A stretch of 64,000 nt of DNA from assembly GCF_947499265.1 (NCBI RefSeq), contig NZ_CANMNK010000001.1:767001-831000 (forward strand). Reading direction: 5' to 3'. Of this stretch, positions 3,534 through 35,817 are shown one piece after another (the stretch's first letter is position 1; each line of letters begins with the position of its first letter). Both the position numbers and the translations under genes were made by a program. The notes beneath the pieces are model-generated. The model was not told the origin of the DNA. It searched no databases and saw nothing but the letters and a program-made list of their open reading frames with translations. This stretch comes from an uncultured Roseobacter sp. Its GTDB lineage: Bacteria > Pseudomonadota > Alphaproteobacteria > Rhodobacterales > Rhodobacteraceae.

Positions 3534-6500
3534 CTACACGCGATCACCTGTTGAAGTTCCGCGCTCTGCCGTGGGTTTTGTATCGGCGGGGCGGTTGATG
3601 CCAAGCCAATCGTTTAGCGGGCGCATCAGCATGCCAAGCGCCACGCCGCAGCAGATCTGGAATACGATATTTGCCAGTTTTGCAGCCGTGGAATCACCTG
3701 CCAGACTGCTGAAAACAAAGTCAGCGGCAGAATGGGTCAAATAGATCATCAGCGAAAAGGCAGCCACGGTGACCACAATTTTTGCCAGCAGACGTGGCAG
3801 TGGGACATAGGGAAAAACCGTGCACAGAAACAGGGCCAGGATCCACCAGAGTTCCGAGTGATTGGTCAGCAGAGAATGCGTGAGCGCGAGATGGCATAGG
3901 ACAAACCCGAAGCTGATCACCTGGCGGCGGAAGGTATCTGCTGCTGCGACCAGCGCACCGAGGGCGAGAAACGGCAGCAGCGTCGTTGGCGATCTGAAGA
4001 GCAGGCGCGCGCTGGCCAATATCTCTCCGTGATGAAGCGCTGCGACCAGAATTGTGCCGATCGCCACCACCTCGGTCAGCACAAAGAAAATGGCCAGGCT
4101 ACGCCATGGGTTTGCCGATAGCTGCCGCCGTATACCGGGAAAACAGAGCAACACCCCGATGGCCAGGAACATCTGCAAATAGACATGCAAAAACCATAGC
4201 CATTCCAGACGATAGGGGATCCACCTCTGGCCCAGGAAAACAACATCAAAGAAATTGACCAGGTTTCGATAAAACAGCAGGGAGGATAGCTCGACGTTGT
4301 TGCCGATATAGAAATGCCAGCTGAAATACAGCAGCGAAACTGGCACTAAGGGCACAAGAAGCCGCCCCAGCAAAGCCCAAACACGCCGGGCGTGGCCGTC
4401 TTTTAGCACGGCAGGCAGTTGCAGGTGCCCAAACGAAAACCCGGCGAGTACGAAGAGCACAATCGACATCCCGCCTGTCAGCTTGAAACCTGCATGAAAG
4501 GCCACGATCTCAACGATGGCGAGACACCTGAGCAGCACGAAGGTTTCGACCCTACTGATCTCAAAACGCGGCGTCGCCGCCGGAGTTTCTGTTGACGTTG
4601 AGGGGGCGAGCGCGGCCAATTCGGTAATGGTCATCCACGGCCAGTTGGTAGGCAGGTTCAGACCAAGCGCCTCAAGATCAAGGCGGGTTTCGATTGTTGA
4701 CAGGCTATCGGCGCCCAGATCAAAGAGGGACTGATCCCGCGTGGCAAACGCGCGACCGGAGTGTTTGACGAGTATCTCGGCAATCGATGTCTCGGCAGAC
4801 CCTTCTGGCGCATCGGATGGCGCAGCGGCATCGGATGTTTCGATGTCCTGCGCCAACTCCGCAAGGGCATCCTTGTCGATCTTGCCGTTCGGAGTGAACG
4901 GAAAGTGATCCATGACCACGATCCGGGCCGGCATCATGTAGGTCGGCAGATTGCTGAACAGCGCCGCCCGGATTTTCTTTTCCGTGACCTCTGCGACCTC
5001 TGACAGCGCAAACAGCAGCAGCCGGTCGTCTGAGATAAGCGCGCAGGCCCGCTCGACGCCCGGCACCGCTTCGGTGGTGGTTTCGACCTCGCCCAATTCC
5101 ACGCGGAAGCCGTTGATCTTGATCTGCCCGTCCCGGCGTCCAGCAAAGTAAATCAGCCCATCCGGCATCTGGTACCCGATGTCGCCGGTGAAATGTCGGC
5201 AGGCCGCGCCGGTTTCGGGCGGGATCCGTTGATTGACCCCCGCCACGGGATCCGCCAGATCGGCGACAATCTCACCCACTTCCCCGACCGAAACCGGGGA
5301 GCCGTCGTCGGCGACCAGTCGGACACCGGTCCAGGGCAGGGTGCGGCCGATGGCAATGTCGCGGGTGCGTGCCGCCCCTTCCTCGATTTCATTGATCACA
5401 AAGGCCTGGGGCGTTTCTGTCGTGCCAAAAACGTTGAACTGGCGCACGCCCGGCACCAGATCGTGCCACTGCTCGACCACCCGTGGCGGCAGCCTTTCAC
5501 CGCCCCAAAAAATCGCTTTCAGGCCATCGAACCCGTCCTCTGACGCCATATCCGTTGTCAAAAGGCGCGCCGATGTCGGACTCAGGCGCAACACATTGCA
5601 GTGCGTTTTCGCGATCAGGGCACGGAGGCGTTTGGGGTCCATCATCTCGCACGGACTTGGGATGGCGATTGTGCCGCCATGGGACAAAGGCAAAAAGATG
5701 TCGCGCGGCGTTGGATCATGCGAGAGCCCGGCCATCATGGTTGTTGTGATGCGGCCTGGCAGCGCAAGTGTGCGCGACTGCCATGAGATGAACCGTTGTA
5801 AGGTCTTGTCGGGATGGGTCGTCAGCTTTGGCTGGCCGGTCGTGCCCGAGGTAAAGAGGTGATAGGCCGCATCCCGTGGCGCGCCGTTCACGATGTTGGG
5901 GAGCCGATCCGTTTCGCGCATCGGTGTGATGCGCGTCACTTGCCCGGCGATCTCAGCGGGCAGATCGACACCTGCCTCAATGACATAGCGTGTTCCGAGC
6001 TGATCCAGCATCCTTTCGATCCGCGACACGGGATAGGTCGCATCGACCAGCGCAAAGGAGGCGCCGCTGGCGGATACCCCCAAAACGGATGCAACCAGAT
6101 CAGAATTGCGTTGCGCAAAAATGACAACCCGGTCCCTGGGCGTGACCCCAGCGGCGTGCAATCCACCGGTTATGGACCCCGCGCGGTGGGCGAGAGCGCG
6201 GTAGGTGAGCGTCTCTTTTGAGGTGATGATGGCTGCAGCATCAGGTTGCCGGTCCGCCCACTCAAAAAAAGCTTCGTGAATCCGCCGGGTCGGTTCAGGC
6301 TCCAGCGTGGATTGCGGCACGACGACCTCACGGCCCTTGCGCGCACGCTTGAGTATCTCCCGGCAGGTTTGGTGTGGGTTTTCAAGGGCGGCCTCAAGGA
6401 TCCTGCCTTGCAGATCAAGGAAGAGTTCCGCGCGTGTCTCTGACAGTTGTGCGGCGTTGTAAAATGCCCGCGCCTTCAGAACGCTCCGGTCCGTCGACCA

Positions 6501-7631
6501 TATGAGGTTCAGATCATATTCCGTCCGCCTGTCAAGAAACTCGCGCGGTCCGACGTCAAGCTCACCTGCCGTGATCCGGGCTGCGGGCGGGAACATATTG
6601 ATGGAAACACTGGGTGCCTTTTGCTCGGAGATCACAAGGTCCAGAACCGGCTCATTTTCCAGAGCAACAGTGTCGCGCGTCTGCGCCGATACCGCAGTCG
6701 AAAAAGCGGCAAATTCCTGATCGAGATCCACGCTGAGGTTCAGGGGCAAGGTGTTGGAAAACGGGCCAATGACCGAATTTGGGGCGCCGAGCGCCTTGCG
6801 TCCTTCGGTCTGGAAAAAGCTTGAGACCGCTTCTTCTCCGGAATAGCCGTGCAAACCGAGGGCGTAGGCGGCTGCAAGCACGCCGAACTGCGTGGCACCG
6901 ATTGATTTGCCCAGTGCGCGAATGGGTTTTTGCACATCCTCGAAACTACGTTCGACGTAACGGCCTGCCGCAGCAGCCTCTTCGTCATGGACGCCGTCAC
7001 CCACCAGCCGCACCGGTTTTGGCAAGGAGCGCACCAGATCCTTTACGTCGGTTGGCGCGCGGGCATCGTCCATCCCCGTTGCGGCAAATTCGTAGTAGGA
7101 CCTGGCGGGCGGCAATGTCTCCCCTGCGTAGAGCTTCAGCAATTCCTTGGTCATGACGCCTCGGGAAAAACCATCCGTGACCGCATGGTGCGCCGCAATT
7201 GTAAAGCGCCAGCGTTCCCCTAGATCCGCCACAAGAAACCGGATCAAAGAGCCGCTTTTAAGGGGATCAACATCGTCAAACACAAGAGGCAAGGCCCAGC
7301 TCCGAAAGGCAGACAAGCTCTGATCGGCCATGTCGCAATGGTGAAGCTGAAGGCTGGGTATTTGTGAGACCACGGCGCTGACATGGCCGCCGGAAATTTC
7401 AAATCGTGTCCGTAAGGACTCGTGGCGTTGCACCAGGTTTTTGGCCGCCGCTGAAAAGGCATTTCTGTCAAATGGTCCCTCAACCAGATGACCCAGCGGG
7501 ATCATATATGACCCTGCGCCCGCGAGTTCGGCTTTTACATATCGGCTCTGATTGTCGCTTGCTGGAACGCGAACCTCTGTCGCGCTTTCCACGCGCAGTG
7601 ACGTGCCATCGGAAACTAAATACTGTCGCAT
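3534..7631 (-). CDS. NRPS module (C-A-PCP) fused to acyltransferase-3 membrane domain
   Basis: A single 1365-residue protein. Order: condensation domain ~35-430 with catalytic HHAVTDG (148-154); adenylation domain ~450-930 with A3 FTSGTTGQPK (593-602), A5 FNVFGTTET (732-740), A7 FTGDIGY (814-820), A8 from GRRDGQ (831) and A10 NGKID (915-919); peptidyl-carrier domain with GADSL, whose Ser976 would carry phosphopantetheine; then ~1026-1350, a multi-spanning acyltransferase-3/OpgC-like domain with the R-x10-H signature (Arg1035, His1046). There is no thioesterase or reductase. I infer that an amino acid is activated, loaded and perhaps acylated, then passed to a membrane-side acceptor by the fused acyltransferase. 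No phosphopantetheinyl transferase or other NRPS gene is nearby. The substrate is unknown. Confidence 0.9.
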   Translation of the reverse strand: MRQYLVSDGTSLRVESATEVRVPASDNQSRYVKAELAGAGSYMIPLGHLVEGPFDRNAFSAAAKNLVQRHESLRTRFEISGGHVSAVVSQIPSLQLHHCDMADQSLSAFRSWALPLVFDDVDPLKSGSLIRFLVADLGERWRFTIAAHHAVTDGFSRGVMTKELLKLYAGETLPPARSYYEFAATGMDDARAPTDVKDLVRSLPKPVRLVGDGVHDEEAAAAGRYVERSFEDVQKPIRALGKSIGATQFGVLAAAYALGLHGYSGEEAVSSFFQTEGRKALGAPNSVIGPFSNTLPLNLSVDLDQEFAAFSTAVSAQTRDTVALENEPVLDLVISEQKAPSVSINMFPPAARITAGELDVGPREFLDRRTEYDLNLIWSTDRSVLKARAFYNAAQLSETRAELFLDLQGRILEAALENPHQTCREILKRARKGREVVVPQSTLEPEPTRRIHEAFFEWADRQPDAAAIITSKETLTYRALAHRAGSITGGLHAAGVTPRDRVVIFAQRNSDLVASVLGVSASGASFALVDATYPVSRIERMLDQLGTRYVIEAGVDLPAEIAGQVTRITPMRETDRLPNIVNGAPRDAAYHLFTSGTTGQPKLTTHPDKTLQRFISWQSRTLALPGRITTTMMAGLSHDPTPRDIFLPLSHGGTIAIPSPCEMMDPKRLRALIAKTHCNVLRLSPTSARLLTTDMASEDGFDGLKAIFWGGERLPPRVVEQWHDLVPGVRQFNVFGTTETPQAFVINEIEEGAARTRDIAIGRTLPWTGVRLVADDGSPVSVGEVGEIVADLADPVAGVNQRIPPETGAACRHFTGDIGYQMPDGLIYFAGRRDGQIKINGFRVELGEVETTTEAVPGVERACALISDDRLLLFALSEVAEVTEKKIRAALFSNLPTYMMPARIVVMDHFPFTPNGKIDKDALAELAQDIETSDAAAPSDAPEGSAETSIAEILVKHSGRAFATRDQSLFDLGADSLSTIETRLDLEALGLNLPTNWPWMTITELAALAPSTSTETPAATPRFEISRVETFVLLRCLAIVEIVAFHAGFKLTGGMSIVLFVLAGFSFGHLQLPAVLKDGHARRVWALLGRLLVPLVPVSLLYFSWHFYIGNNVELSSLLFYRNLVNFFDVVFLGQRWIPYRLEWLWFLHVYLQMFLAIGVLLCFPGIRRQLSANPWRSLAIFFVLTEVVAIGTILVAALHHGEILASARLLFRSPTTLLPFLALGALVAAADTFRRQVISFGFVLCHLALTHSLLTNHSELWWILALFLCTVFPYVPLPRLLAKIVVTVAAFSLMIYLTHSAADFVFSSLAGDSTAAKLANIVFQICCGVALGMLMRPLNDWLGINRPADTKPTAERGTSTGDRV

Positions 7632-15659: not shown

Positions 15660-16823
15660 CTATCTCAGGGCGCGGTTTGCAATGTCCCGTACGGTGTCGG
15701 CCAGTTTGGCGGTGCGTTCGGCGTCCCACGTCGTGTCGACAAGGAACGCCAAGCTGGTCTCTCCCAACGCTTGTGCGACAGGCAGCGGTGCCTCTGGCGC
15801 CAGTCCCCGGCTAGTGAAGGTCTCTTCGCGGTAAATCTCTGAGCAGCTGCCGGAAAAGGCCGGGAATCCCGCCTTTGATATCTCTGCCAGAACCCGATCG
15901 CGTGACCAATCCGCGGCAAGCGCCTCGGGACGCACAAAGGCATAAAACCGATACCAGGCATGCGTGATATCCGAGGGCGGCATCGGCACGCGCAAGGCGT
16001 CACACCCCGAAAGCGCGCCGCTGAGAATGCGGGCATTCCGCTCTCTGTGCGCCCGCCAATCGTCAAGATGCGACAGCTGTATGCGCCCGATGACGGCGGC
16101 GGGTCCGGCCATCCTGAGATTGGTGCCCGGCCCGGCATTGTGCAACCACCGAAACCCCGGGGGGTGATCGGTGTCAAAGACATTGGCATGGCCCTTGCCG
16201 TGATCCTTGTGGCTCCAGGCGCGGCGCCACAGATCATCGTCATTGCAAAGCAGCATGCCGCCTTCGCCGCCTGTGCTGATGATCTTGTCCTGACAAAAGG
16301 AGAACGACCCGAAAGTGCCGATGGTACCGACATGCCGATCACCCAACTGCGCCCCATGCGCTTGCGCGCAATCTTCGATGACCCACAGGTTATTCGCCCG
16401 CGCCAGATCCATGAAACCGTCCATGTCGCAGGGCCACCCGGCGAGGTGTACTGGCAAGATGCCGCGCGTCTTGGGCCCGATCAGGGGGGCCACGGTTTCC
16501 GGCGTGATGTTCCCGGTGTCGGGGTCGACATCGGCAAACACTGGCACGCCACCGGCCAGCAGAACGCAGCTGGCAGAGGCCATGAAGCTCCGGGGGGCGA
16601 CGATCACCTCGTCGCCCGGTTGCAGATCAAGCACATGCAGGGCCGTATCCAGCGTCACTGACCCGTTGGCCATGGCGATGGAATGGCGGGCGCCTGTGTA
16701 GTGACAATAGGCTTTTTCAAAGTCGCCGACATCCGGGCCGGTCCAGGCATTCACCTTGCCGGAGCGCAGCACGGCGGCGACGGCTTCAATCTGTTCGGTA
16801 TCGTAAACGGGCCACTGGCTCAT
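15660..16823 (-). CDS. DegT/DnrJ/EryC1 PLP-dependent sugar aminotransferase
   Basis: A PLP enzyme of the nucleotide-sugar aminotransferase family, 387 residues. Asp151 (VIEDCAQAHG) would hold the pyridine nitrogen and Lys180 (SFCQDKIISTGGEGGM) would form the Schiff base, so this is a true aminotransferase, unlike the other DegT homologue in the window. It likely aminates a keto-sugar nucleotide for surface polysaccharide. The ATG has AAGGA seven bases upstream; an upstream extension would overlap the PIG-L gene. It is last gene of a leftward four-gene operon (initiating transferase, formyltransferase, PIG-L, this), which fits synthesis and N-acyl editing of an amino sugar. Confidence 0.9.
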   Translation of the reverse strand: MSQWPVYDTEQIEAVAAVLRSGKVNAWTGPDVGDFEKAYCHYTGARHSIAMANGSVTLDTALHVLDLQPGDEVIVAPRSFMASASCVLLAGGVPVFADVDPDTGNITPETVAPLIGPKTRGILPVHLAGWPCDMDGFMDLARANNLWVIEDCAQAHGAQLGDRHVGTIGTFGSFSFCQDKIISTGGEGGMLLCNDDDLWRRAWSHKDHGKGHANVFDTDHPPGFRWLHNAGPGTNLRMAGPAAVIGRIQLSHLDDWRAHRERNARILSGALSGCDALRVPMPPSDITHAWYRFYAFVRPEALAADWSRDRVLAEISKAGFPAFSGSCSEIYREETFTSRGLAPEAPLPVAQALGETSLAFLVDTTWDAERTAKLADTVRDIANRALR

Positions 16824-16836
16824 GCTAGTTCCTTTT

Positions 16837-17535
16837 TCAGACGACGGTTCTGACGAGGACAAATCCTTCTGCCGCAGGTCTGTGCACGGTAGCCCCCCGC
16901 AGCGTGGCCAGCGCGCGCAGCGCTTCAACCGATCTTTCGTGCGGGGCGGGGAAGACCTGGCTGGCAAATTTCCTAAATGCCGCGATTTTCTGGTCCACGG
17001 TGTCCGAGATATCGATGAAGACATTCGGCACAAAGGCGGGGGTCAGATAGGGCGCGTTCCAGTTGGTTTCCGACAAGGTTTCATAGGCCAGAATTGTGGC
17101 CGGATAATCTGCTTGGTGCGGCCTGCTGGCGACCAGCGTCGACAGGAAACTGAGTTGATGGTCGAGGTGGATGTCGCCTGGATGCGGTGCTAGGATCAGC
17201 GCGGGCGCCACCTCGCGCACCAATTTCCCCAAGCCTGCATTGAGCGCGCCATGCGGTTCTTCGGCCAGCGCGGCCGCGGGAAAATCCAGCCAATGTGTCT
17301 TTGTCACGCCCAGCAGCTCATGCGCCGCGGCAGCTTCGGCCTTTACGGTGCGGATCTGTTCCGCATCGAATTTTGGCGGCTGACCACTGGTGACAATGCC
17401 GATATGAACCTCCCGACCTTCGCTGGCAAAGCGCGCAATTGTGCCGCCCGCCCCCAGCACCTCGTCGTCCGGATGCGGTGCGATGACCAGAACAGGGCCC
17501 GTCGAGGACACAAGGTCGCTGGGGTTATGGGTCAT
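16837..17535 (-). CDS. PIG-L/LmbE family deacetylase
   Basis: Zinc-dependent N-deacetylase of ~232 residues. The metal-binding signature APHPDDEVLGAGGT lies near residues 19-32 and the second histidine-rich motif is PHPGDIHLDHQLS. Family members remove acetyl groups from GlcNAc-like residues, as in GPI, mycothiol and bacillithiol synthesis. Sandwiched between a formyltransferase and an aminotransferase, it could expose an amino group on a sugar for formylation. The ATG at 17535 is preferred over a TTG two codons upstream. It overlaps the formyltransferase gene by 11 bases and lies 13 bases before the aminotransferase start. Confidence 0.9.
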   Translation of the reverse strand: MTHNPSDLVSSTGPVLVIAPHPDDEVLGAGGTIARFASEGREVHIGIVTSGQPPKFDAEQIRTVKAEAAAAHELLGVTKTHWLDFPAAALAEEPHGALNAGLGKLVREVAPALILAPHPGDIHLDHQLSFLSTLVASRPHQADYPATILAYETLSETNWNAPYLTPAFVPNVFIDISDTVDQKIAAFRKFASQVFPAPHERSVEALRALATLRGATVHRPAAEGFVLVRTVV

Positions 17536-18448
17536 GGCCAAAGTCTTTCAGCTTGCTGTGAAGGGGCGGTGGTTTGTCAGAGCCGGACCACTCAAGAATA
17601 TCGAGGCATTTCCCATCACCACAGGCCACGGTGAAGGATCGTCCGTTGATGTCCTGAATTTGCCCGGGCAGGCCAATAAACCGCCCCGCTTCAGGTGTGT
17701 GCCGGACAGCGGTCAGCGTGATCTGCGCGCCGTCCCCTGCATAGGTGAACGCACCGGGGTAGGGGGGACCCACCGCCCGGATCAGGCGGTGAATTTCCGC
17801 TGCCGGACGGGTCCAGTCGATGCGCCCGTCTTCGGGCCTGCGACGGGCGCAGATGCTGATGCCGTCGTCTGGTTGCGGTGTGGAGGGAATGTCACCCGCA
17901 GCAATGGACGTCAGCAGTGGTGGCAACATTCCGGCAAGCGCCTCCAGCACCCGGTCATAGAGTTCACGCGCCGTCACCGTGTCGGGGTCGATTTGAAACC
18001 TGGCCTGTGCAGCGAGGGGGCCATCATCGGCACCCGCGCCCAGCCAGAACAGGCTGGCGCCGACATCCCGTTCACCAAGGAGGATGGTCCAGGGGAGCAC
18101 GCCACGCCCGCGAAGTTTCGGCAGGGCGGTGGGGTGAAATCCGATGCATCCCAGTTTCGGAATTGCCCTGAAGTCCGGGCCGCAGATTTGCGACCAGCCA
18201 ATGACCAACGCCAGATCTGGTTCGACACCCTTGATGGCCGCCAGCGCCTCCGGCGCGTTGATCTGCGACGCGTAAAGCACCGGTATGTCATGGGCGGCAG
18301 CCACCGGGTCCAGATCGGCAAAATCCGAATGGCGTTGCGCCAGATCAGGGGGCAGGGTGACGATCAGCGCCGGTATGTGTCCCGCGGCGCACATGCTTTC
18401 CAAGGCCGCGTGTGATCCTTCCACAGCACCCACAAATACCGTTCTCAT
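17525..18448 (-). CDS. methionyl-tRNA-formyltransferase-like sugar formyltransferase
   Basis: A 307-residue protein with the formyltransferase Rossmann half (GFHPTALPKLRGRG at 103-116) and a C-terminal region resembling the Fmt C-lobe (LIRAVGPPYPGAFTY). In characterised N10-formyl-THF formyltransferases the catalytic triad is Asn-x-His plus Asp. Here His105 and an Asp (141/142 in ADDGP) are present, but the Asn position is Gly103. It is too unlike Fmt, and too clearly placed in a glycan operon, to be the housekeeping enzyme. Likely role: N-formylation of an amino sugar, though another one-carbon or acyl donor is possible. It overlaps the sugar-transferase gene by ATGA. Confidence 0.83.
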   Translation of the reverse strand: MRTVFVGAVEGSHAALESMCAAGHIPALIVTLPPDLAQRHSDFADLDPVAAAHDIPVLYASQINAPEALAAIKGVEPDLALVIGWSQICGPDFRAIPKLGCIGFHPTALPKLRGRGVLPWTILLGERDVGASLFWLGAGADDGPLAAQARFQIDPDTVTARELYDRVLEALAGMLPPLLTSIAAGDIPSTPQPDDGISICARRRPEDGRIDWTRPAAEIHRLIRAVGPPYPGAFTYAGDGAQITLTAVRHTPEAGRFIGLPGQIQDINGRSFTVACGDGKCLDILEWSGSDKPPPLHSKLKDFGHDP

Positions 18449-19065
18449 GCGGATACTCCGGCGGAGTTTTTCGGCAGATGCGCATTAAGCCAGCGCGTTG
18501 CGTCCTCCAGACGCTCTGGCCGACGTTTTTCGCCGAAAAGAGCGACGCCAAGCGTTTCCCACAGAATGCGCAGATCCAGTGCCGTGGACCGGTGGGACAC
18601 ATACCACAGATCCAGCCGCAGCTTTTCTTCGTTCGACAGAGTGGTATTGCCGCTGACTTGCGACCAGCCTGTCAACCCGGGTCTGACAGCACTACGCAGA
18701 CGTCCCGTTTCGCCAAATTCATCGATGGTTTCCGGCAGCAGCGGTCTGGGCCCGACAAGCGCCATGCGACCGAGCAGGATGAGCCAGAGTTGCGGGATTT
18801 CATCCAGACGCAGCCTGCGGACTAGCACGCTTATCCGTGTCTGTCGTTCTGCGTCTGGAAGCAATGTGCCGCTCGCATCCCGTTCTTCCCGCATCGTCCT
18901 CAGTTTGGCGATGTCGAAGGTTTTACCGGATTTGCCCGATCTGGTCTGCCAAAACAGAATAGGACGGCCGAGATCGACCCAGACCAAACAGCACGCAAGG
19001 AGGAGGACTGGGAACGCAAAAATGCCGACGAAAAGGCAGATCAAGATTTCAAACAGGCGATTCAT
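18445..19065 (-). CDS. initiating sugar-phosphate transferase (short PglC-like type)
   Basis: A 206-residue bacterial sugar transferase that should move a sugar-1-phosphate from a nucleotide sugar onto undecaprenyl phosphate and start a polysaccharide repeat. It has one N-terminal re-entrant/membrane helix (LICLFVGIFAFPVLLLACC), then FWQTRSGKSGKTF, KLRTM, the catalytic Asp-Glu in RLDEIPQL, VGPRPLLPE and RPGLTGWSQVSG, all family hallmarks. The small size is that of the minimal monotopic enzymes. It is the first gene of the leftward operon, divergent from the glycosyltransferase at 19321. Confidence 0.93.
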   Translation of the reverse strand: MNRLFEILICLFVGIFAFPVLLLACCLVWVDLGRPILFWQTRSGKSGKTFDIAKLRTMREERDASGTLLPDAERQTRISVLVRRLRLDEIPQLWLILLGRMALVGPRPLLPETIDEFGETGRLRSAVRPGLTGWSQVSGNTTLSNEEKLRLDLWYVSHRSTALDLRILWETLGVALFGEKRRPERLEDATRWLNAHLPKNSAGVSA

Positions 19066-19320
19066 AACACACAGTGAATACTTTACCCTAAAAACCGCCG
19101 AACTCTCTGCCCGACGCGTTCAAAAGAGCGACCAAGGCTGTTTCAACGGCAACCAAAAATGCCAAAATATTAAGCAGCTTTCGCCGCAGAACTTAAGAAT
19201 TACGTCCGAATCTCAGGCGAAATTACACGTAATTCCGCAATTTCCAAATAGATTCTCGGCATCGGTCAAGTTGGAATTCAATCGGGAATTGCAATAAGTT
19301 AGGCGATTTCCCGGAATGGT
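19066..19320. other. divergent intergenic region of the polysaccharide locus
   Basis: A 255-base AT-richer spacer between the leftward amino-sugar operon and the rightward glycosyltransferase genes. No gene seen. It presumably carries divergent promoters for the two halves of the locus; no clear operator was found. Confidence 0.45.
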
Positions 19321-20556
19321 ATGCATTCCTCTTTGTCTCAGGAAAGTTTACTTGTAATGCCAAAAAAAAGTAAGAACACTAACATTATGATTATTGTTCA
19401 TTTTATCACCAGCACGGGAGTGGGTGGTGCTCAAATTATGTTAAAGAGGTACTTGGCTGCGCTCGGACCGGAGGCCAAAAACCACAGTGTGGTTTCCCTG
19501 ACCGGCATTGGATCGATTGGGCGAGATATCCAGAATATGGGCGTTCATGTTGAGCCGCTTGGGCTGAAGCCCGGGCGCGTGAGCCTGTCAGCCATCGCGA
19601 AAATGCGAAAGATGCTGCGGCAGCAGCCGGTCAGCGTCGTTCATGCCTGGATGTATCACGGATGTCTGGCATCGATCATCGGATTGGCGGGCAGGTTCGG
19701 CAAAAAACCGGGACTGGTTTGGGGTGTGCATCACTCCTTGCAGGACATCAAAAAGGAAAAGTTTTCCAGCCAGATGATCATCCGGATCATGGCGGCCTTG
19801 TCGGGGAGTGTCGGGCGCATCACCTATTGCTCCGACGTGTCCCGAAATCAGCATGAGGCAATTGGCTTCAATGCAAAGAAATCAGCGCTCATTCCCAACG
19901 CCGTCGATACCTCGGAATTCAAACCTGACCCTGCCGCGCGTGACAGGCTGATCGAGGTTCTTGGTATTCCGGGTGATCGACTGATGGTGGGGAATGTATC
20001 GCGCAGCCATCCGATGAAAGACCATGTCTCCATGATGCGGGCCACCGCAAAGATGCTGGATGAGGGCCACAACGTTCAGGCTGTTCTGATCGGCGAGGGC
20101 CATACAGGCAGTGCCGCTGCGGTAGAAGCGCAGTCTTTGGGAATTGCCGATCGTGTGAGCATTCTGGAGATGCGCCACGACATCGCCAAGCTGGTGCCAG
20201 GTCTGGATGTTTTTCTGCTGTCGTCAGCCTGGGGTGAGGCGTTCCCCCTCGCGGTGACGGAGGCGATGTCGGCAGAGGTGCCCTGCGTGGTCACGGATGT
20301 CGGGGATTGCGCAAAACTCGTCGGGGATACCGGCACTGTGGTGCCGCCATCCGACGCAAATGCACAGGCATCAGCTGTGGGCGCATTATTGTCCGCGGGT
20401 GAAGAAGAACGGGCGCGCCTGGGCAGGGCCGCGCGCCTGCGTGTTCAAGATAACTTTTCGATGAATCAATACGTACAACTTCATAGAGATGCCTACCATT
20501 CGGTGCAGTCAGGCCGACCGCAGGCGGCGCATAATATCCGCTCGATGTCTGCCTGA
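19321..20556 (+). CDS. glycosyltransferase family 4
   Basis: A cytoplasmic GT-B glycosyltransferase of up to 411 residues. The N-terminal domain has the donor/acceptor loop STGVGGAQ, and the C-terminal domain has VGNVSRSHPMKDH and the E-x7-E type element near SAWGEAFPLAVTEAMSAEVP, as in retaining GT4 enzymes. It would add a sugar to the lipid-linked repeat. GGAA lies close before the chosen ATG; ATGs at 19357 and 19387 are possible alternatives, the last starting right at the first beta strand. It is the first rightward gene of the locus. Confidence 0.9.
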   Translation: MHSSLSQESLLVMPKKSKNTNIMIIVHFITSTGVGGAQIMLKRYLAALGPEAKNHSVVSLTGIGSIGRDIQNMGVHVEPLGLKPGRVSLSAIAKMRKMLRQQPVSVVHAWMYHGCLASIIGLAGRFGKKPGLVWGVHHSLQDIKKEKFSSQMIIRIMAALSGSVGRITYCSDVSRNQHEAIGFNAKKSALIPNAVDTSEFKPDPAARDRLIEVLGIPGDRLMVGNVSRSHPMKDHVSMMRATAKMLDEGHNVQAVLIGEGHTGSAAAVEAQSLGIADRVSILEMRHDIAKLVPGLDVFLLSSAWGEAFPLAVTEAMSAEVPCVVTDVGDCAKLVGDTGTVVPPSDANAQASAVGALLSAGEEERARLGRAARLRVQDNFSMNQYVQLHRDAYHSVQSGRPQAAHNIRSMSA

Positions 20557-20626
20557 ACAAGAATTGTGTTAAGCGCGGCTCAGGCCGCCGTTTGGAATTA
20601 GTTTAAGCAAGGGACCCCTGCGCGTG

Positions 20627-20645
20627 CGCATCGGGAACCGATGCG
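20627..20645 (+). promoter_or_regulatory. perfect hairpin abutting the ribosome-binding site of the BY-kinase gene
   Basis: CGCATCGG (20627-20634) and CCGATGCG (20638-20645) form a perfect 8-bp stem with a 3-base loop. The Shine-Dalgarno GGAG begins at the next base, and the start codon follows within 3-9 bases. In RNA this would sit directly on the initiation site. It could tune translation, protect the 5' end after processing, or end transcription from the preceding gene; there is no U-run. Confidence 0.5.
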
Positions 20646-20651
20646 GGAGTG

Positions 20652-22529
20652 ATGAATATGACAGCACAAGGGCCGATTTCGCAATTGGGTCAGACGGAGC
20701 CGGAGGGCAGGGTCGGGCTTGATGGCGCCTGGAGCATCGTTCGCCGCCATTTGTTGATGGTCATCTTGATTGTCACTGCTTTTGTCGGGCTTGCCTATGC
20801 CGCCGTCAGCTATTTGCCGGAGGAGTACAAGACCCGGTCGACGGTGATCTTGACCTTGCTGGAGACGAGGGTCAGCGCCACGGAAGTGGAATTGGAGACA
20901 TTTGAGCTTTCACGCCTGGTGATCGAGACCGAGCTGGATATTCTGCGCTCTCGTGACTTCGCCGTGGAAGTCGCGGAAGCGCTGCAATTCTTTGACGAAC
21001 CGACGTTTGCGGGCGAGCCGGGCGTTGCCGAGGATCCAAACGATCCGGTTTGGCGTGAAAAGGTCATTGATAAAACTTTGAAATCCTACACTGTTTTCCG
21101 CCAGGGGGAGAGTTTGGCAGTTGAAATCGTGGCGGAATCGACCGATCCCCGCATGGCCGCGAACATCGCAAATCAGGTTGCCAGATCGTATATTGAAAAA
21201 TCCGTTCTCAAACGCCGTGAAGGCATTGTGCAATCCATTGAGTTTCTGCGCGGGCGCGTCGATCAATTGGGCGAAGAGCTTTCGCAGTCTGAGCTGAGCC
21301 TTGCAGCCTTCATCCGCGAGAACGATCTTGATGATGAGAACCTTTCCGATCAGCTGCGCGCCGATGTGGACCGGCTTGTTTCCATCGAGAGCATTTTGTC
21401 AAAGGATCCAACCGCGCAAGACGAATTCGAAGCGACGACACAGGACCTGCGGGCTGCCGAAGCTGCACTACATGATCGCACGCGGTCGCAGCTGTCGCTG
21501 ATGCGGATGGAGCGCTCGATGGAACTGCTGCGCGCGCGCTATCAAACAGCCATCGAGAAACTGAACGAGCTTGAAAACCAATTGCAATTTGTGTCCCAGG
21601 GTGCTCGGCAGGTGTCTGTGGCGCGGGTTCCGATTGACCCATTCTGGCCCAACAAGCGCACGACGCTTGCGGTCAGTGTGGTGGCGGGTCTGGCGCTGGC
21701 CTTCATCGCGGCCCTGCTGCTGGAAGGTCTTAACAACAAGCTTTGGAACGAAGATCAGACGATCGCAGCCTCCGGGGTTCCGAATTTCGGGTTTGTGCCC
21801 AAAATCAAGAAGAAGGGTCTGTTTTCCCGAGAGTACTCACCCATCTGGTTTCTCCACGCAAACCCCAACTCGGGATTTGCGGAGGCGCTGCGCAGCCTGA
21901 TCACCCTGTGGTTCAACCTGGCTGCCGGAGGGAAAGTGGTGATGGTCACCTCTGGTCTGCCAAACGAAGGAAAATCGACATTGACCGTGGCGCTGGCGGC
22001 TGCTGCGGCCAATGACGGGATGAATGTACTGGTTCTCGACCTCGACAGCCACCGCCGCGGGGCGTCTAAAATGCTGGGCTCAACTGAAAAACTGGCAACA
22101 TTTCAGGATGTTCTGTCCGGGAAAACCGTTGGCGTGCCCGCCTATGTGGATGGCGAGGAAGTGACGGGCGTGCAGGTTCTTGGCCTGCAAACGCGGCACA
22201 AAACGTCACCGCAGGATCTGAAACAGGATCTGCAGGCTCTGAACAAGAAGCTGAGCGCGGACTATGATCTCGTGTTGGTGGATACACCGCCGGTGCTTGT
22301 CGTGGACGAACCCTGCCGTTTTGGTGCGTTGGTTGAATCGACGCTGCTGGTTGTCAGGTGGGGTCGCACGACCGACGAGGTGCTGCGGGATACCGTTGGG
22401 AAACTCGCCAGCAACGGTATCGAAGTTTCCGGGACCGTCATCAACAACGTCGACCCGCGCAAACAGCGCAGATACGGATACGGCGGATATGCGCATTACT
22501 ACAGTTACGGCGCATCAGGGTATCACTGA
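20652..22529 (+). CDS. Wzc-like polysaccharide co-polymerase / BY-kinase
   Basis: A 625-residue fusion of a Wzz co-polymerase domain and a bacterial tyrosine kinase. TM1 is ~36-54, a periplasmic coiled-coil-rich region ~60-330, and TM2 ~340-358. The kinase has Walker A SGLPNEGKST (~435), Walker A' LVLDLDSHRR (~462) and Walker B DYDLVLVDTPP. The C-terminal tail is Tyr-rich (seven Tyr in the last ~20 residues, ending YYSYGASGYH), the classic autophosphorylation cluster. It controls chain length and export with the outer-membrane ExoF-like protein. The start is ATG 20652 or 20658, just after a hairpin. The stop overlaps the next start (TGATG), coupling it to the beta-helix protein. Confidence 0.94.
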   Translation: MNMTAQGPISQLGQTEPEGRVGLDGAWSIVRRHLLMVILIVTAFVGLAYAAVSYLPEEYKTRSTVILTLLETRVSATEVELETFELSRLVIETELDILRSRDFAVEVAEALQFFDEPTFAGEPGVAEDPNDPVWREKVIDKTLKSYTVFRQGESLAVEIVAESTDPRMAANIANQVARSYIEKSVLKRREGIVQSIEFLRGRVDQLGEELSQSELSLAAFIRENDLDDENLSDQLRADVDRLVSIESILSKDPTAQDEFEATTQDLRAAEAALHDRTRSQLSLMRMERSMELLRARYQTAIEKLNELENQLQFVSQGARQVSVARVPIDPFWPNKRTTLAVSVVAGLALAFIAALLLEGLNNKLWNEDQTIAASGVPNFGFVPKIKKKGLFSREYSPIWFLHANPNSGFAEALRSLITLWFNLAAGGKVVMVTSGLPNEGKSTLTVALAAAAANDGMNVLVLDLDSHRRGASKMLGSTEKLATFQDVLSGKTVGVPAYVDGEEVTGVQVLGLQTRHKTSPQDLKQDLQALNKKLSADYDLVLVDTPPVLVVDEPCRFGALVESTLLVVRWGRTTDEVLRDTVGKLASNGIEVSGTVINNVDPRKQRRYGYGGYAHYYSYGASGYH

Positions 22530-23917
22530 TGTTACACGCCGCCGCTGTTTTATCGGTTCTCTTGCTGATGCCCGAAGCGTCGGGCGCAGGTCCTGCTGAC
22601 GGGATTGCGTTCCCGGGTGCCGATGGGTTTGGCGCGGTCGCAACCGGCTGGAAAGGTGGCGAAATTCACAGGGTTTCATCTTTGGCCGATGACGGCCCCG
22701 GCTCATTGCGTGCCTGTGCGGCGAGCAGCGGGCAGCCGCGAATTTGTGTGTTTTCGGTGAGCGGCACCATCGAGTTGCGCGGTCCGATCAAACTGCCATC
22801 CAATATATATGTTGCCGGGCAAACCGCACCGGGGGATGGCATTCAGTTGCGACTGGTTGGTGGCAAGCACGGGCCGCTGATCCTGAAGAATGTGAATGAT
22901 GTTGTGGTGCGTCATCTCAAGGTGCGCCCCGGGCCGAGCCCGACACCGTCGCCGTCCGTGGATGCGATCACGGTGGAGAACGGGCAACGGATCTATCTGG
23001 GCAACCTGTCGATGGCCTTTGCCACGGATGAAACATTTAATGTCCACGTATCGGGAGCGACGGCGGCAGATATTACCCTTGCCGACAGCATTCTGGCTTA
23101 TAGTTTGGACCGCTCTAATCATCCGAAGGGACGACACTCGAAGGGCGCGTTGATCTGCTCAACCGAGAACGTGAACAATGCTTGCGGGCGGATTTCGCTG
23201 CACCGCAACCTGTTTGCCCACCACAGGGATCGGCAACCTGACGTCAAGGGTACCTCCATCGGTCCGGTGGAGGTGATCAACAACGTCTTTTACAACCCGG
23301 TCAGCCAGTTCGGCGAGTTTTACGATCTGATCGGGGATGCAAAAATTGCCTATCTTGGCAATGTCGCGTTATCCGGACCAAACACCATTCGGAAAACGCC
23401 CGAAGCCGTGCAGGTTTTTGAGTGGGAGGATGCGTTTCACGTTGAGCTTTTGGCCGAGGACAATATCGCGACATCTGCGCAGGGGTGCCGCGTGCGGCAA
23501 ATGCACGTGCTCGACCCCATTGCGCAGCAGCAACAAGTCGCAGCACCGGGATGGCAGACAAACATTGCGGCCCGGCCCGCAGCGCAGACCCTCGGTGATG
23601 TCCTGGGGATAGCCGGAGACCAGATCCTGGGCAGACGGGCTCCCGACGCGCTGGATCAGCGGGTGGTGTCTGATGTCCGAAACTGTGGTGGCGCGATCAT
23701 TAACGAGGTCACGCAAGTCGGTGGCTGGCCGTCGATTGCATCAGCCGATCCAGCGTCACAAACAGACAGCGACGGTGACGGTTTTCCGGACCTGTGGGAA
23801 GCCGGCCAAAGCGGGCTGGACCCAAACGAAGCGGATGATCCCTGGGAGGGTAATCCCCAGACCGGGCTGAGCCATGTCGAAACCTGGTTGGCGGCGCTCG
23901 CTGGGGATGGGAGTTAG
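22529..23917 (+). CDS. secreted pectate-lyase-like right-handed beta-helix protein
   Basis: A 462-residue protein with a signal peptide of ~20-24 residues (hydrophobic LSVLLLMPEA, then SGAGPADG). The start of the mature part, AFPGADGFGAVATGWKGGEIHRVSSLADDGPGSLR (quoted only as a landmark around residues 28-60), is the pattern of pectate-lyase superfamily proteins. The repeated short strands (NIYVAGQTAPGDGIQL, VVVRHLKVRPG) fit a parallel beta-helix. The C-terminal DSDGDGFPDLWEAGQ looks like a calcium-binding thrombospondin-type-3-like element. It is translationally coupled to the BY-kinase. Probable role: trimming, releasing or editing the exported polysaccharide; PL1-like lyase versus hydrolase cannot be told. 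Confidence 0.88.
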   Translation: MLHAAAVLSVLLLMPEASGAGPADGIAFPGADGFGAVATGWKGGEIHRVSSLADDGPGSLRACAASSGQPRICVFSVSGTIELRGPIKLPSNIYVAGQTAPGDGIQLRLVGGKHGPLILKNVNDVVVRHLKVRPGPSPTPSPSVDAITVENGQRIYLGNLSMAFATDETFNVHVSGATAADITLADSILAYSLDRSNHPKGRHSKGALICSTENVNNACGRISLHRNLFAHHRDRQPDVKGTSIGPVEVINNVFYNPVSQFGEFYDLIGDAKIAYLGNVALSGPNTIRKTPEAVQVFEWEDAFHVELLAEDNIATSAQGCRVRQMHVLDPIAQQQQVAAPGWQTNIAARPAAQTLGDVLGIAGDQILGRRAPDALDQRVVSDVRNCGGAIINEVTQVGGWPSIASADPASQTDSDGDGFPDLWEAGQSGLDPNEADDPWEGNPQTGLSHVETWLAALAGDGS

Positions 23918-24213
23918 GTGATGATCGGAATGTATCAGCTGCTGAGCGAAATTAGTGGCGGGACCGATGGCTTAGGCTTGCGCGCGGGTCCCAAGCTTGA
24001 CAGGGGTTTCGGAGCGGATAGGTCGCGCCGTCAGACATTCAGCGGGCCATTGCATCTGTGTTGCGATGCACAACTCAATGCCCCAAGAGCGGAATTCGTC
24101 GGAAACAAATTCCCCGCATTCCAAGTCTTGTCTTCCAAAGTTGCAGGAGAGCTATCGGCAATGCCGACAGTCTCCCAATTGTTCAATGTGTTTGATTTCC
24201 GGAGGAAATACCC
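23918..24213. other. intergenic region before the ExoF-like gene
   Basis: A 296-base spacer with no credible gene; the one open frame (99 codons, starting right after the beta-helix gene stop) runs into the export gene and has no family-like features. It contains a 13-base palindrome (24155-24167) and a strong GGAGGAA ribosome-binding site (24201-24207). Confidence 0.45.
24155..24167. promoter_or_regulatory. 13-base palindrome upstream of the export gene
   Basis: TCGGCA-A-TGCCGA is a perfect inverted repeat with a single central base, about 47 bases before the ExoF-like start codon. It could be an operator for a dimeric regulator or a small stem-loop. No second copy was noticed. Confidence 0.35.
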
Positions 24214-25434
24214 GTGAAACGTCCTGTGCTGGTACCCTTTCTTATCGCGGTTTTTCTTTGGCTCTCCGCGCCATTTGCGATCGCACAGACATACACGTTG
24301 ACCGGACAGGACCGTGTCCTGATACGGGCCATGCAATGGGACAGAACCACCGGCTCATATTCACAATGGCCCGGCGTTTCCGGTGAATACGTCGTGTCAA
24401 CAGAGGGGCTGATACATGTCCCGCTGGCTGGCCAGCTTGAGGCCAAGGGAAAGACGGTCGGGGCCTTGTCCGAGCAATTGCAACTCAGGCTGCACCGCCT
24501 GATCGGAACCTCGGAGCCGCCGCAGGTCGCGATGGAAATCATTGGGCATCTGCCGGTGTACGTTTTGGGAGACGTGCAAAACCCGGGAGCTTACCCCTAT
24601 CGGCCCGGTCTCACATCACAACAAGCGCTCGCGGTGTCGGGCGGTTTGCTCCGGATCATCGATGCAGACGCTCCAGGCAACGCTTCGGAACAGTTGAGGC
24701 TGGCAGGCCAGATACGGGTTGCTGAAGACCGGATCAGAGCCCTTCAGGAGGAGCGCAACCGCCTCAACTGGGATCTTGGCGCATTGGGTCGGCAGCTCGA
24801 AACGGGTTCGGATGCAGCCTGGCCGACGGGGAGAGAAGGCGAGATCCTTGCTGCTGTGCAGACCGCGCGGGCCGCTCAAAATGCGCGGATTCTCGATCTG
24901 CAGGCCGTGCTGAAAGAGCAGATTACCCGCCTAAGCTCTCAGATCGCGCTACGGGATGAGCAGATCGCCCTGACAAAAGCGGAGCTCGAAAACGTCAGTT
25001 CGCTGAAAGAGCGCGGGCTGACCGTGAACACACGGGTATCAAGCCTGAACAACGCGCTCAACGATCTGGAGGCGAAGCGCCTGCAGTTGGAGATCGGCCT
25101 GCTGACCGCGCAACAACAGCTCAATCTGGCAGAGCGGGAAGAGTTGACTTTGCTGGACGATGCAAAATCGGGCGGCCTGTCACGGTTGAACAACGTCGAG
25201 CAGGAAATCGCAGCCCAGCAGATCGGCCTGACAACCCTTCGCTCATTGTATGAAGAGGCGGTTGCAGCCAACCCCTCCGCCGTGGTTGATCCGCTGACCG
25301 AGCGGGTGACGAAGTATTTTGTTACGCGCGGGTCGGACCCGACCGTGCTCGAATTGACCGCGACGGGTGAATTGCTGCCGGGCGACACAATCGAAATCCG
25401 CCGCGTCTCGATAGGTGAAAAAGCTGCCAATTAG
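24214..25434 (+). CDS. ExoF-like polysaccharide export protein
   Basis: A 406-residue periplasmic/outer-membrane export protein. A signal peptide of ~24 residues ends at PFAIA. It is followed by a Poly_export (Wza-like) domain (LTGQDRVLIRAMQWD ... STEGLIHVPLAGQL), an SLBB-like segment (VYVLGDVQNPGAYPYRPGLTSQQALAVSGG), then a long coiled coil (~150-350) rich in Leu, Gln, Glu and Arg. The coiled-coil extension is characteristic of the rhizobial ExoF branch rather than E. coli Wza. It lacks a lipobox cysteine. The start is GTG with GGAGGAA six bases upstream. It would form the exit channel working with the BY-kinase two genes upstream. Confidence 0.9.
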   Translation: MKRPVLVPFLIAVFLWLSAPFAIAQTYTLTGQDRVLIRAMQWDRTTGSYSQWPGVSGEYVVSTEGLIHVPLAGQLEAKGKTVGALSEQLQLRLHRLIGTSEPPQVAMEIIGHLPVYVLGDVQNPGAYPYRPGLTSQQALAVSGGLLRIIDADAPGNASEQLRLAGQIRVAEDRIRALQEERNRLNWDLGALGRQLETGSDAAWPTGREGEILAAVQTARAAQNARILDLQAVLKEQITRLSSQIALRDEQIALTKAELENVSSLKERGLTVNTRVSSLNNALNDLEAKRLQLEIGLLTAQQQLNLAEREELTLLDDAKSGGLSRLNNVEQEIAAQQIGLTTLRSLYEEAVAANPSAVVDPLTERVTKYFVTRGSDPTVLELTATGELLPGDTIEIRRVSIGEKAAN

Positions 25435-25618
25435 ATATGAGCGAAATGAAAATCGAATGCATTGGAGACCGCGACAAACAGCCGTTGTACACCGCTGAAA
25501 TGATAGTTTGGAGATTACGTTTTTAAGCCACCAACCTTTGCGAGAACTTCGGGATTTCAATGCCCCGATCCGCATAATCGCCCGGAATTTAATGCCAGTA
25601 TGAACAGATGAGGTTTTG

Positions 25619-26449
25619 ATGCCGACCCCAGATTTAAATGTTGATTTTTTGATAATCGGTGCCGCCAAATGTGCCACAACCTGGCTGCAGCAATCGCTTT
25701 CTGCCAACAAATCCCTGTATTTACCCGAACCGGAGCTACACTTCTTCTCACGTGAGTATGACCGCGGGATCGCCTGGTATCAGGACCAGTTTTCCGGGTT
25801 CGGACGCGATGTCACAATCGGAGAAAAATCCAATTCCTACCTCACCGAACCGCAGGCCGCCGACCGCATTGCCAAACACTATCCGGATGTTCGCCTGATC
25901 GCTCAACTGCGCGACCCGGTGAAACGCGCCTACTCTGACTACTGCATGCTACTGCGCCGCGGTAGTGTATCGACCGACATCTGGCGGCATCTGGATCCCG
26001 AAAAAGCGGCCGATGAAAGGTTCCTTATCGACAGCCGGTACGGGCATCACCTGACGCGTTTCAGGAATACCTTTCCCGAAGAAAACCTTCTGATCCTCGA
26101 CTTTGATGACGTCACGCGGGAGCCTGAAAAGCAGCTGCGCCGTGTTGCGGATCATCTTGGGGTAAAGGGCGCGCTGCATCCGCCCGTGCAGGAGCGTGTT
26201 AAAGACAAAAATGCGCCCACTGTGCCGCATAGATTTCGACGTGCGCTGGCCCCCTTGCGGCCTATGCTCGATCCGTTGCGAGACAAATGGCCGGTCCGCG
26301 CCATCCGTGACCGGATTGCCCGACCGGTGAAATATCCGCCTTTGCATCCCGATCTCGCCAAAAAGATGAGGGATCACTTCCTGCCAGATATCGAGTTGCT
26401 GCAAAAATTTGAGCCAACAATATCAGCGCATTGGCTTGGAGAGAGGTGA
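25619..26449 (+). CDS. PAPS-dependent sulfotransferase
   Basis: A 276-residue sulfotransferase-fold protein. The 5'-phosphosulfate-binding loop is IGAAKCATTWLQQSL near residue 12, and the 3'-phosphate-binding segment is LRDPVKRAYSDYCMLLRRG, both as in heparan-type sulfotransferases. It would transfer sulfate from PAPS to a hydroxyl or amine of the polysaccharide. No signal peptide is seen, so it should act in the cytosol on lipid-linked repeats or nucleotide sugars. ATG 25619 is used in preference to the TTG just before it. It lies 184 bases after the export gene and may have its own promoter. Confidence 0.9.
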   Translation: MPTPDLNVDFLIIGAAKCATTWLQQSLSANKSLYLPEPELHFFSREYDRGIAWYQDQFSGFGRDVTIGEKSNSYLTEPQAADRIAKHYPDVRLIAQLRDPVKRAYSDYCMLLRRGSVSTDIWRHLDPEKAADERFLIDSRYGHHLTRFRNTFPEENLLILDFDDVTREPEKQLRRVADHLGVKGALHPPVQERVKDKNAPTVPHRFRRALAPLRPMLDPLRDKWPVRAIRDRIARPVKYPPLHPDLAKKMRDHFLPDIELLQKFEPTISAHWLGER

Positions 26450-27042
26450 TGGATCGCAGCGGTATCACGCGCAAGGAGAGAGCGGAAACCGGCGAATCGT
26501 CGCCGATTCGGGCTCGAATTCCGGTGAGAATCATCAATGAGGCGCTGTTTGCACGAATTATGTTGCTAAAAAAATCATCACAATTCGTTTTTTTGCGCAT
26601 TCAATTTATGCGAGAGGTTTTAGTAAATATATGATTTTAAACCAATAAAGTCGAAATTATGTATCTTTTGTGACATCTTCCCGCATAGGTAGACCGCATT
26701 ATGATGGAAATCAGCGCGGTCATGCATATAATTATTAACAATAGGTTAACACGTCTTAGTTGTAACGATTGCAAAAGTTTTTTTATCCCGGGCGACACTG
26801 GGAAAGACGCAATTCAAGCGTTTTTTGAGTACGAAAATGAAGTTTGGTGAAGTGGTGTTAGGAGGCTTTGAATTGAATTTTTTTGAATGTTGCCGGGGTT
26901 TGTTCATCCCGTGACAAAATTAGCTTTAGCCGGGGTTGCGCTGGCTGGCTGAGCACAAGGAGCGGTGATCCAAGATTTCCTGGGCGCTCCAACTCTAAAA
27001 TTTAAGACGTACCGACGAACCAACGAACGTGGAGCGTTGCGC
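26450..27042. other. long AT-rich regulatory region before the CapD-like gene
   Basis: About 590 bases, clearly AT-richer than the flanking genes, between the sulfotransferase stop and the chosen CapD start. It contains a 7-bp hairpin (CGAATCG/CGATTCG, 26493-26510), a perfect CtrA-type box (26735-26750) and an AGGAGG ribosome-binding-like site (26860-26865) that serves no annotated gene. The short open frames here have no recognisable content. It is the likeliest place for the main promoter of the downstream sugar operon. Confidence 0.55.
26735..26750 (+). promoter_or_regulatory. CtrA-type binding box
   Basis: TTAA-N7-TTAAC is an exact match to the alphaproteobacterial CtrA consensus, in a 590-base non-coding region upstream of the CapD-like operon. 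CtrA is the cell-cycle/motility response regulator of this class; in Rhodobacterales it commonly controls motility and surface traits. Binding is inferred from the match alone. Confidence 0.5.
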
Positions 27043-30419: not shown

Positions 30420-30853
30420 TGTGCGATGAAACATCCACAGCGATGCCCCAGGCATCCAACACGCGGACCCGCGCAATCCGGTTCCTGGGAACGGGCGTGG
30501 TCAATACGATGTTTGGCTATGGCGTTTACGCCTTGCTGGTCAGTCTTGGCGCCCATGTTCAGGTCGCACTGGCGGCGCAGTTTGCGCTGGGCGTGATCTG
30601 GAACTACGCGCTCCACGCCAGATTTGTTTTTGGCGTCAGCGGGTACGACAAGTTGCCAAGATATTGCCTGGCCTATGTCAGCGCCTACCTGTTCAACGCC
30701 GTCCTGCTCCAGATCCTATCGAACGCCGGGATGAACCCCTACGCGGCGCAGCTCTTAGCGCTGGTGCCAACCGTGATTTTGTCCTTCGTTCTGGTTTCTT
30801 ACGCGCTTGGCGCCTCGCTTGATGTCAAGGGAGGTCGCAATGAGCGTCTCTGA
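30416..30853 (+). CDS. GtrA-like small membrane protein
   Basis: About 145 residues with four hydrophobic helices and the GtrA-family opening RFLGTGVVNTMFGYGVYALLV. GtrA proteins are thought to help flip undecaprenyl-phosphate-linked sugars, working with a GtrB-type glycosyltransferase and a GT-C transferase. A GtrB-like GT2 occurs at 38074 and a GT-C protein immediately follows, so all three parts are present. The start is ATG 30416 in an ATGA overlap, or the adjacent ATG 30419. Confidence 0.88.
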   Translation: MMCDETSTAMPQASNTRTRAIRFLGTGVVNTMFGYGVYALLVSLGAHVQVALAAQFALGVIWNYALHARFVFGVSGYDKLPRYCLAYVSAYLFNAVLLQILSNAGMNPYAAQLLALVPTVILSFVLVSYALGASLDVKGGRNERL

Positions 30854-32489: not shown

Positions 32490-32557
32490 TGATCCATCCT
32501 TGCCATACCGCCCGGCACGATGTGCCAATTCGGTCAATTCTTTCGACCGGTCACCAG

Positions 32558-32573
32558 TTAAGCATTTGTAAAC
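32558..32573 (+). promoter_or_regulatory. near-consensus CtrA-type box before rfbF
   Basis: TTAA-N7-TAAAC, one mismatch from TTAA-N7-TTAAC, lies 26 bases before the cytidylyltransferase start codon, in the 109-base gap after the GT-C gene. With the exact box at 26735 it hints at shared control, but a one-mismatch AT-rich word can arise by chance. Confidence 0.3.
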
Positions 32574-32598
32574 ATTAGTTACTACGAGGGAGTTTGAT

Positions 32599-33405: not shown

Positions 33406-33415
33406 AGTTAAGCTA

Positions 33416-34552: not shown

Positions 34553-34583
34553 CCGCCTTTTATCGAATAGGGAGAATACCATC

Positions 34584-35792: not shown

Positions 35793-35801
35793 TTTTGGCC
35801 C

Positions 35802-35817
35802 GCCGGTAACCCGGCGC
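35802..35817 (+). other. GC-rich hairpin between deoxysugar genes
   Basis: CGCCGG-TAAC-CCGGCG is a perfect 6-bp stem with a 4-base loop in the 59-base gap between the 3-dehydratase and C-methyltransferase genes. TTTCGTTTT follows only after a further 9 bases, so it may be a weak attenuator or an mRNA-stabilising element rather than a true terminator. Confidence 0.35.

Follow-up and report, generated by a model that had tools for sequence, protein, structure and literature searches.

A single-chain condensation-adenylation-carrier-acyltransferase-3 protein of an uncultured Roseobacter as a candidate carrier-fed membrane acyltransferase

Main finding and proposed mechanism

In a window of 64,000 nucleotides from an uncultured Roseobacter sp. 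(the whole stretch of DNA analyzed; contig NZ_CANMNK010000001.1, positions 767,001 to 831,000), one uninterrupted minus-strand frame of 1365 codons (3534-7631) encodes a nonribosomal peptide synthetase (NRPS) module, consisting of condensation (C), adenylation (A) and peptidyl carrier (PCP) domains, fused to an acyltransferase-3 (AT3) membrane domain. This C-A-PCP-AT3 anatomy is confirmed and conserved among relatives, and carrier-fused AT3 domains have lost the first basic residue of a motif predicted to bind acyl-coenzyme A (acyl-CoA). The reading that is favored, by a modest measure, is that the protein acts as a one-protein, carrier-fed transmembrane acyltransferase similar to the Dlt system, in which AT3 takes an (N-acyl-)aminoacyl group from the built-in carrier. 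First, the A domain would adenylate an amino acid and attach it to the phosphopantetheine arm at S976, a step well supported by the domain anatomy. The C domain may then N-acylate the carrier-bound amino group, most likely with an acyl chain from acyl carrier protein (acyl-ACP) or from acyl-CoA, after which AT3 would stand in for a thioesterase by moving the (N-acyl-)aminoacyl group onto an outer-face acceptor. This acceptor might be a surface glycan, toward which the evidence points weakly. A wider proposal, that the donor of AT3 proteins changed at least two times from acyl-CoA to a fused carrier and that one clade added a C domain, giving a single polypeptide that exports an N-acyl-amino acid through the membrane to an outer-face acceptor, is put forward tentatively, as falling just short of an even call.

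Domain organization

Proteins with the full C-A-PCP-AT3 order are termed long forms, and those with A-PCP-AT3 short forms; alignment A4 covers the PCP-AT3 part of 32 family members (11 long and 21 short forms). The features of the gene are as follows.

3534..7631, minus strand: whole gene, C-A-PCP-AT3, 1365 residues; ten full-length relatives
6354..7565, minus strand: condensation domain, residues 23-426; PF00668, 113 bits (cut-off 30.6)
7170..7190, minus strand: HHAVTDG, active-site motif of the C domain, residues 148-154; H, H, D and G in 10/10
4857..6269, minus strand: adenylation domain, residues 455-925; PF00501 (AMP-binding) at residues 455-789, 181 bits (cut-off 29.9); TIGR01733, 248 bits, under the model cut-off of 317
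5700..5720, minus strand: HDPTPRD, A-pocket motif (Asp235, Pro236, Arg239), residues 638-644; D, P and R in 11/11 long forms
4602..4799, minus strand: carrier (PCP) domain, about residues 945-1010; PF00550 in 26/32 of A4
4704..4706, minus strand: S976, expected phosphopantetheine site; G-x-D-S invariant in 32/32
3612..4541, minus strand: AT3 membrane domain, about residues 1031-1340; PF01757 in 30/32 of A4
4494..4529, minus strand: R1035-x10-H1046 in the first AT3 helix; kept in 32/32
4362..4373, minus strand: RXXR site of AT3, here L1087-x-x-R1090; first basic residue in 0-1/32

Of the features of an NRPS module, HHxxxDG in C, Asp235 and Lys517 in A, and a carrier serine (S976, in DLGADS) are present, and R-x10-H is intact in AT3. 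The count for the C motif comes from 10 aligned domains, as the alignment of the eleventh long form, L090, did not include the C piece. Taken alone, the window protein gives a sub-threshold PP-binding match (E 0.045) and an Acyl_transf_3 match of 25.4-25.6 bits, under the cut-off of 31. The domain counts in A4 were obtained at E <= 0.01, and the AT3 cut-off is exceeded by relatives L089 (41.8 bits), L072 and L081. An AlphaFold2 prediction of the PCP-AT3 part gave one confident model (pLDDT 90.8, pTM 0.89), in which about ten membrane helices were counted by eye. Foldseek matched this model to carrier domains and to human HGSNAT (probability 0.96, but E 0.22 and TM 0.38), and the best solved-structure matches of the A4 profile were acyl carrier proteins. 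HGSNAT and AT3 have been placed in one TmAT superfamily (PMC12423673). A chance AT3 match is ruled out by the relatives and the structure model. No MBOAT match was returned by the Pfam scans, which gave AT3 instead, and no thioesterase family was found among the Pfam matches of the whole protein (E <= 0.001) or of its last 400 residues (E <= 10). The earlier note, made from the sequence of the window, had described intact C, A and carrier domains followed in frame by an AT3 domain with R-x10-H, and no thioesterase, and had given no strand; both descriptions hold. The genome has one match to PF01648, which by its sequence and neighbors looks like AcpS, although a second transferase, if divergent, may have escaped detection.

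Long and short forms in other genomes

Eleven long forms were collected as a lower bound, counting the window protein and that of genome G747, and the ten full-length relatives are 42-59% identical to the window protein. All four domains keep their catalytic motifs over this range, which argues for the mechanism proposed above, as does the modeling of PCP and AT3 together at a predicted pTM of 0.89. The long form occurs in 3 of 295 genomes of the same family, own genome included. Within the genus, the gene is present in G747, with no match in 8 listed congeners. Across the order (390 genomes), 22 genomes were matched: the long form is found in the own genome, G092, G747 and G962, and the remaining 18 have mostly the short form. 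In sets for the class (385 genomes) and phylum (398 genomes) the long form is confined to the own genome, with 4 and 8 further genomes matched, respectively, by frames of 866-953 residues (the split G235 excepted). A wider contig scan with two peptide patterns retrieved nine relatives, each matching from C through AT3: two from Tropicimonas, and one each from Fluviibacterium, a Gemmobacter metagenome-assembled genome (MAG), Albibacillus, Rhodovulum robiginosum, an uncultured Roseobacter, Silicimonas and a Henriciella MAG. Those genera whose placement was looked up belong to Rhodobacterales, save Henriciella (Hyphomonadales). The 11 long forms group as a single clade (support 1.0) in a tree built from the AT3 part. 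Viral contigs and a viral structure library yielded nothing useful, and a plasmid search gave two weak matches.

Ten of the 11 long forms are read in one frame, the Fluviibacterium copy being cut by one in-frame stop. An assembly or frameshift artifact is thereby excluded, since the fusion recurs in independent genomes. The other objection raised beforehand, that homologs might always be separate genes, fails as well. In one genome, G235 (L064:1-2494), the A-PCP frame and the AT3 frame lie side by side with a slight overlap, and may be two genes or the result of a frameshift; a glycosyltransferase-like frame is their neighbor.

Short forms, of about 800-950 residues and without C, were read at 21 loci. 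Beyond these, an actinobacterial one, L188 (5669-8206), is carried by a Mycolicibacterium crocinum plasmid and annotated 'AMP-binding protein'. Two more adenylation-carrier-AT3 proteins, L156 (1456-3888) and L065 (592-3060), come from another AT3 branch; the carrier of L156 is a carrier-like stretch spotted by eye only. G222 (L039:7531-14785) has a C-A-PCP protein whose neighbors are an OpgC-type acyltransferase and a family-2 glycosyltransferase; this protein was considered as a model and dropped, as it ends in a thioesterase.

An altered donor site in carrier-fused AT3

Both RXXR and R-x10-H, which are proposed to hold acyl-CoA in AT3 proteins (PMC9833829, PMC9558356), are essential in OafA (PMC7448272). 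RXXR, on the cytosolic face of the third transmembrane helix, is predicted to bind acyl-CoA in AT3 proteins and is highly, though not absolutely, conserved (PMC9558356). Carrier-fused AT3 domains were compared at this site with controls drawn from 30 AT3 matches in ten of the same genomes; removal of three family members and L156 left 26, of which 3 are AT3-SGNH proteins and 23 have no other Pfam domain or a short frame (long frames were scanned). R/K-x10-H is present in 26/26 controls and 32/32 carrier-fused domains. The first basic residue of RXXR was found in 23/26 controls vs 0/32 carrier-fused domains (Fisher p 3e-13, nominal because the compared sequences are related by descent). In another alignment, with L156 still among the controls, the counts were 22/26 and 1/32 (p 5e-11, nominal for the same reason). 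The window protein reads L1087-x-x-R1090, so that the usual motif is altered.

This residue is also gone in L156, L065, L188 and L062. L156 and L065 pair with a support of 0.93 within a group (0.96) of ordinary KXXR members, L159, L163 and L168, and it looks as if two separate carrier fusions were perhaps accompanied by the same loss. The change is consistent with an altered donor site and fits a carrier-bound donor, falling short of proof. The suggestion of the earlier note that the membrane acyltransferase could be the release enzyme, and so carry out both release and transfer, gains support from this contrast.

Adenylation pocket and candidate substrate

The A pockets of the 11 long forms were read in GrsA numbering, anchored by motifs: D235, P236, R239, R or H at 278, F (once V) at 299, G301, V, L or I at 322, Q330, A331 and K517, giving the pattern D-P-R-[R/H]-F-G-x-Q-A-K. 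Asp235 is found in 11/11 forms with C and 0/21 without it, so the C domain coincides with an amino-acid-type pocket. Short forms have serine at 235 in 18 cases, and K517 in 21/21. R239 with R/H278 suggests an acidic group in the substrate. Because of these two basic residues, and because the pocket may resemble the fungal aminoadipate reductase code, an acidic amino acid may be taken as a first guess. The aminoadipate reductase model TIGR03443 matches the window protein with E 1.2e-58, its best stretch (588-751), over the pocket region, reaching 199 bits against a cut-off of 1030.

The single PF00668 match in the own genome is the C domain of the window protein, and no second C domain was detected there that could belong to a partner NRPS module (E <= 0.001). 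An upstream NRPS donor is therefore unlikely, and acyl-ACP or acyl-CoA appears the most likely donor for the putative C step.

Gene context

15660..45955: surface polysaccharide cluster, about 8 kb from the NRPS-AT3 gene; possible acceptor source

This cluster contains a sugar transferase, glycosyltransferases, an export protein, epimerases, two DegT aminotransferases, a C-methyltransferase and Polysacc_synt (flippase-like). In a tblastn test of context with 13 queries, all from the window's own cluster, so that distant polysaccharide genes are missed, polysaccharide-type genes were found near 2/11 long, 3/21 short and 1/39 control loci; the hit at the own locus is a glycosyltransferase on the other side, beyond the window. 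At L095 an epimerase, a phosphoglucomutase/phosphomannomutase and a glycosyltransferase lie beside the gene, and polysaccharide genes are also close by at L034. At L089 its neighbors are two phosphodiesterase-type proteins and a GMC oxidoreductase.

Directly after 4/11 long forms stands a ketopantoate-reductase-like gene (L090:12079-13149, L089:12071-13150, L092:12065-13129 and L097:8942-10009). The predicted structure of its product matches ketopantoate reductase and D-mandelate dehydrogenase folds (best match 3hwr, E 3e-12), and at E <= 1e-5 neither the own genome nor G747 gave a match to it. It was considered as a conserved operon partner and key to function and set aside, being not general. 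In the window, a gene at 7873-9450 encodes a fusion of an aldo-keto reductase with a RidA-type (L-PSP) domain; it lies 241 nt upstream of the NRPS-AT3 gene and on the same strand.

Evidence against the mechanism and alternative explanations

Several points weigh against the carrier-fed mechanism, which rests on sequence and models. At the donor site, the second RXXR position is basic in 11/11 long forms (R in 7, K in 3, H in 1), and is R in 13/21 short forms. In simulations of OafB, Arg74 and Arg14 touch the 3'-phosphate of CoA (PMC9833829); R1090 aligns with the second arginine of RXXR, which is OafB Arg74, and R1035 resembles OafB Arg14. Contacts with CoA are thus not cleanly lost. A looser local search for [RK]xxR gave 5/11 long forms, 1/21 short forms and 23/26 controls, and the adjacent-frame AT3 of G235 has R-F-A-R. 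The sequences compared are related and fall in two branches, hence perhaps two losses. Donors demonstrated for AT3 in vitro are acetyl-CoA, 'rather than' ACP, according to a review (PMC9558356). Structures of DltB, the precedent for carrier feeding, show a blocked tunnel, so that a change of shape is needed (PMC11035591). The gene context is a weak pointer to a glycan acceptor, suggestive at most. One actinobacterial short form, L188, closes an iron ABC-transporter operon, whose last gene it overlaps by 4 nt. The C domain does not stand out as a starter, the best solved match of its profile being TycC, an elongation module, and solved structures do not assign it to a subtype.

Of the alternatives, the one that survives best keeps the carrier-fed transfer and changes the acceptor to a membrane lipid, a siderophore or another small metabolite; it is judged doubtful, if well worth bearing in mind. 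It would account for the 9/11 long forms that have no match to polysaccharide queries nearby and for the place of L188 among iron-transport genes, and macrolides, too, are modified by AT3 proteins (CmmA; PMC9558356). Polysaccharide genes close by in the own window, at L095 and at L034 speak for a glycan instead, as does the tendency of characterized AT3 acceptors to be mainly sugar-containing surface structures (PMC9558356). The transfer of an amino acid or N-acyl amino acid to a lipid or glycan, as first suggested, is not established as regards cargo and acceptor; the A pocket looks amino-acid-like.

It has also been considered, as an unlikely course, that the C domain joins another carrier-bound unit or is silent, so that AT3 would move a dipeptide or a plain aminoacyl group. 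The match to TycC would agree with the former, and a donor could be supplied by L106:793-3159 (own genome, contig 3), which has an A-like region and a PF00550 match, with a C-terminal extension. HHxxxDG kept in 10/10 makes a silent C domain unlikely, and C is present exactly where the amino-type A pocket is. Moreover, in G747, which has the same long form, the three PF00550 matches are the long form and two short carriers only.

Least probable is that AT3 is an ordinary acyl-CoA-dependent acetyltransferase, fused by chance to a carrier that is not its donor: the acyl-CoA donors demonstrated in vitro (PMC9558356), the intact R-x10-H of carrier-fused AT3 and the basic second RXXR position would fit it, but RXXR has lost its first basic residue in 31 or 32/32 (two alignments) and again in a separate fusion branch, no thioesterase that could free the carrier product was detected in Pfam scans of the protein, and the A-PCP and AT3 parts stay adjacent in G235.

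Significance

The AT3 review takes acyl-CoA as the general AT3 donor (PMC9558356). If the carrier-fed mechanism is true, an AT3 with a built-in carrier, and with RXXR partly lost in two branches, would represent a second way of feeding AT3 pores, and AT3 cargo would extend beyond small acyl groups to include (N-acyl-)aminoacyl groups. A single polypeptide would also allow the delivery of the donor through the membrane to be studied directly.

Comparison with known systems

Among the top-listed papers of the literature searches, no C-A-PCP-AT3 or A-PCP-AT3 protein was found described, so prior description is possible. The AT3 family (OafA/OafB, OatA) shares with the window protein the PF01757 match, R-x10-H and a multi-helix membrane domain, but the donors demonstrated for the family are acyl-CoA, and its highly conserved RXXR (PMC9558356) is altered here. 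The two commonest AT3 fusions in the same review are those with SGNH and alanine racemase, and its text does not contain 'acyl carrier', 'AMP-binding' or 'peptide synthetase' (PMC9558356). OaaC, a stand-alone C domain that joins an ACP-bound acyl chain and an amine into fatty acid amides (PMC13142362), offers a precedent for the proposed C step. It differs in its free amine acceptor and in having no AT3. The TIGR03443 match, far below its cut-off, suggests some likeness to the A domain of Lys2 (alpha-aminoadipate reductase), and Lys2 ends in a reductase, whereas the window protein ends in AT3. The AlmE-AlmF-AlmG system, which places glycine on lipid A of Vibrio cholerae, likewise combines amino acid adenylation, a carrier and an acyltransferase, but uses three genes and another acyltransferase type and is not known to have a C domain.

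The closest likeness is to Dlt, in which AcpS-modified DltC binds to DltB at its inner face, the carrier arm being long enough for contact with the active-site histidine about 20 A away (PMC11035591). Adenylation, carrier loading, carrier docking on a membrane acyltransferase and transfer to an outer-face acceptor belong to Dlt (PMC11035591) and would be shared by the window protein. Dlt consists of separate genes, with an MBOAT and a teichoic acid acceptor, whereas the window protein is one chain with AT3. Dlt is not known to include a C domain. The 'undescribed class' of aminoacyl transferase proposed in the earlier note must be narrowed accordingly: Dlt already brings an adenylating enzyme, a carrier and a membrane acyltransferase together, and the window protein departs from it by having AT3 in place of MBOAT, by being encoded in one gene and by including a C domain. 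By analogy, the window protein may resemble Dlt in its working yet is no member of Dlt; it is an AT3 protein in which one of the usual motifs is altered.

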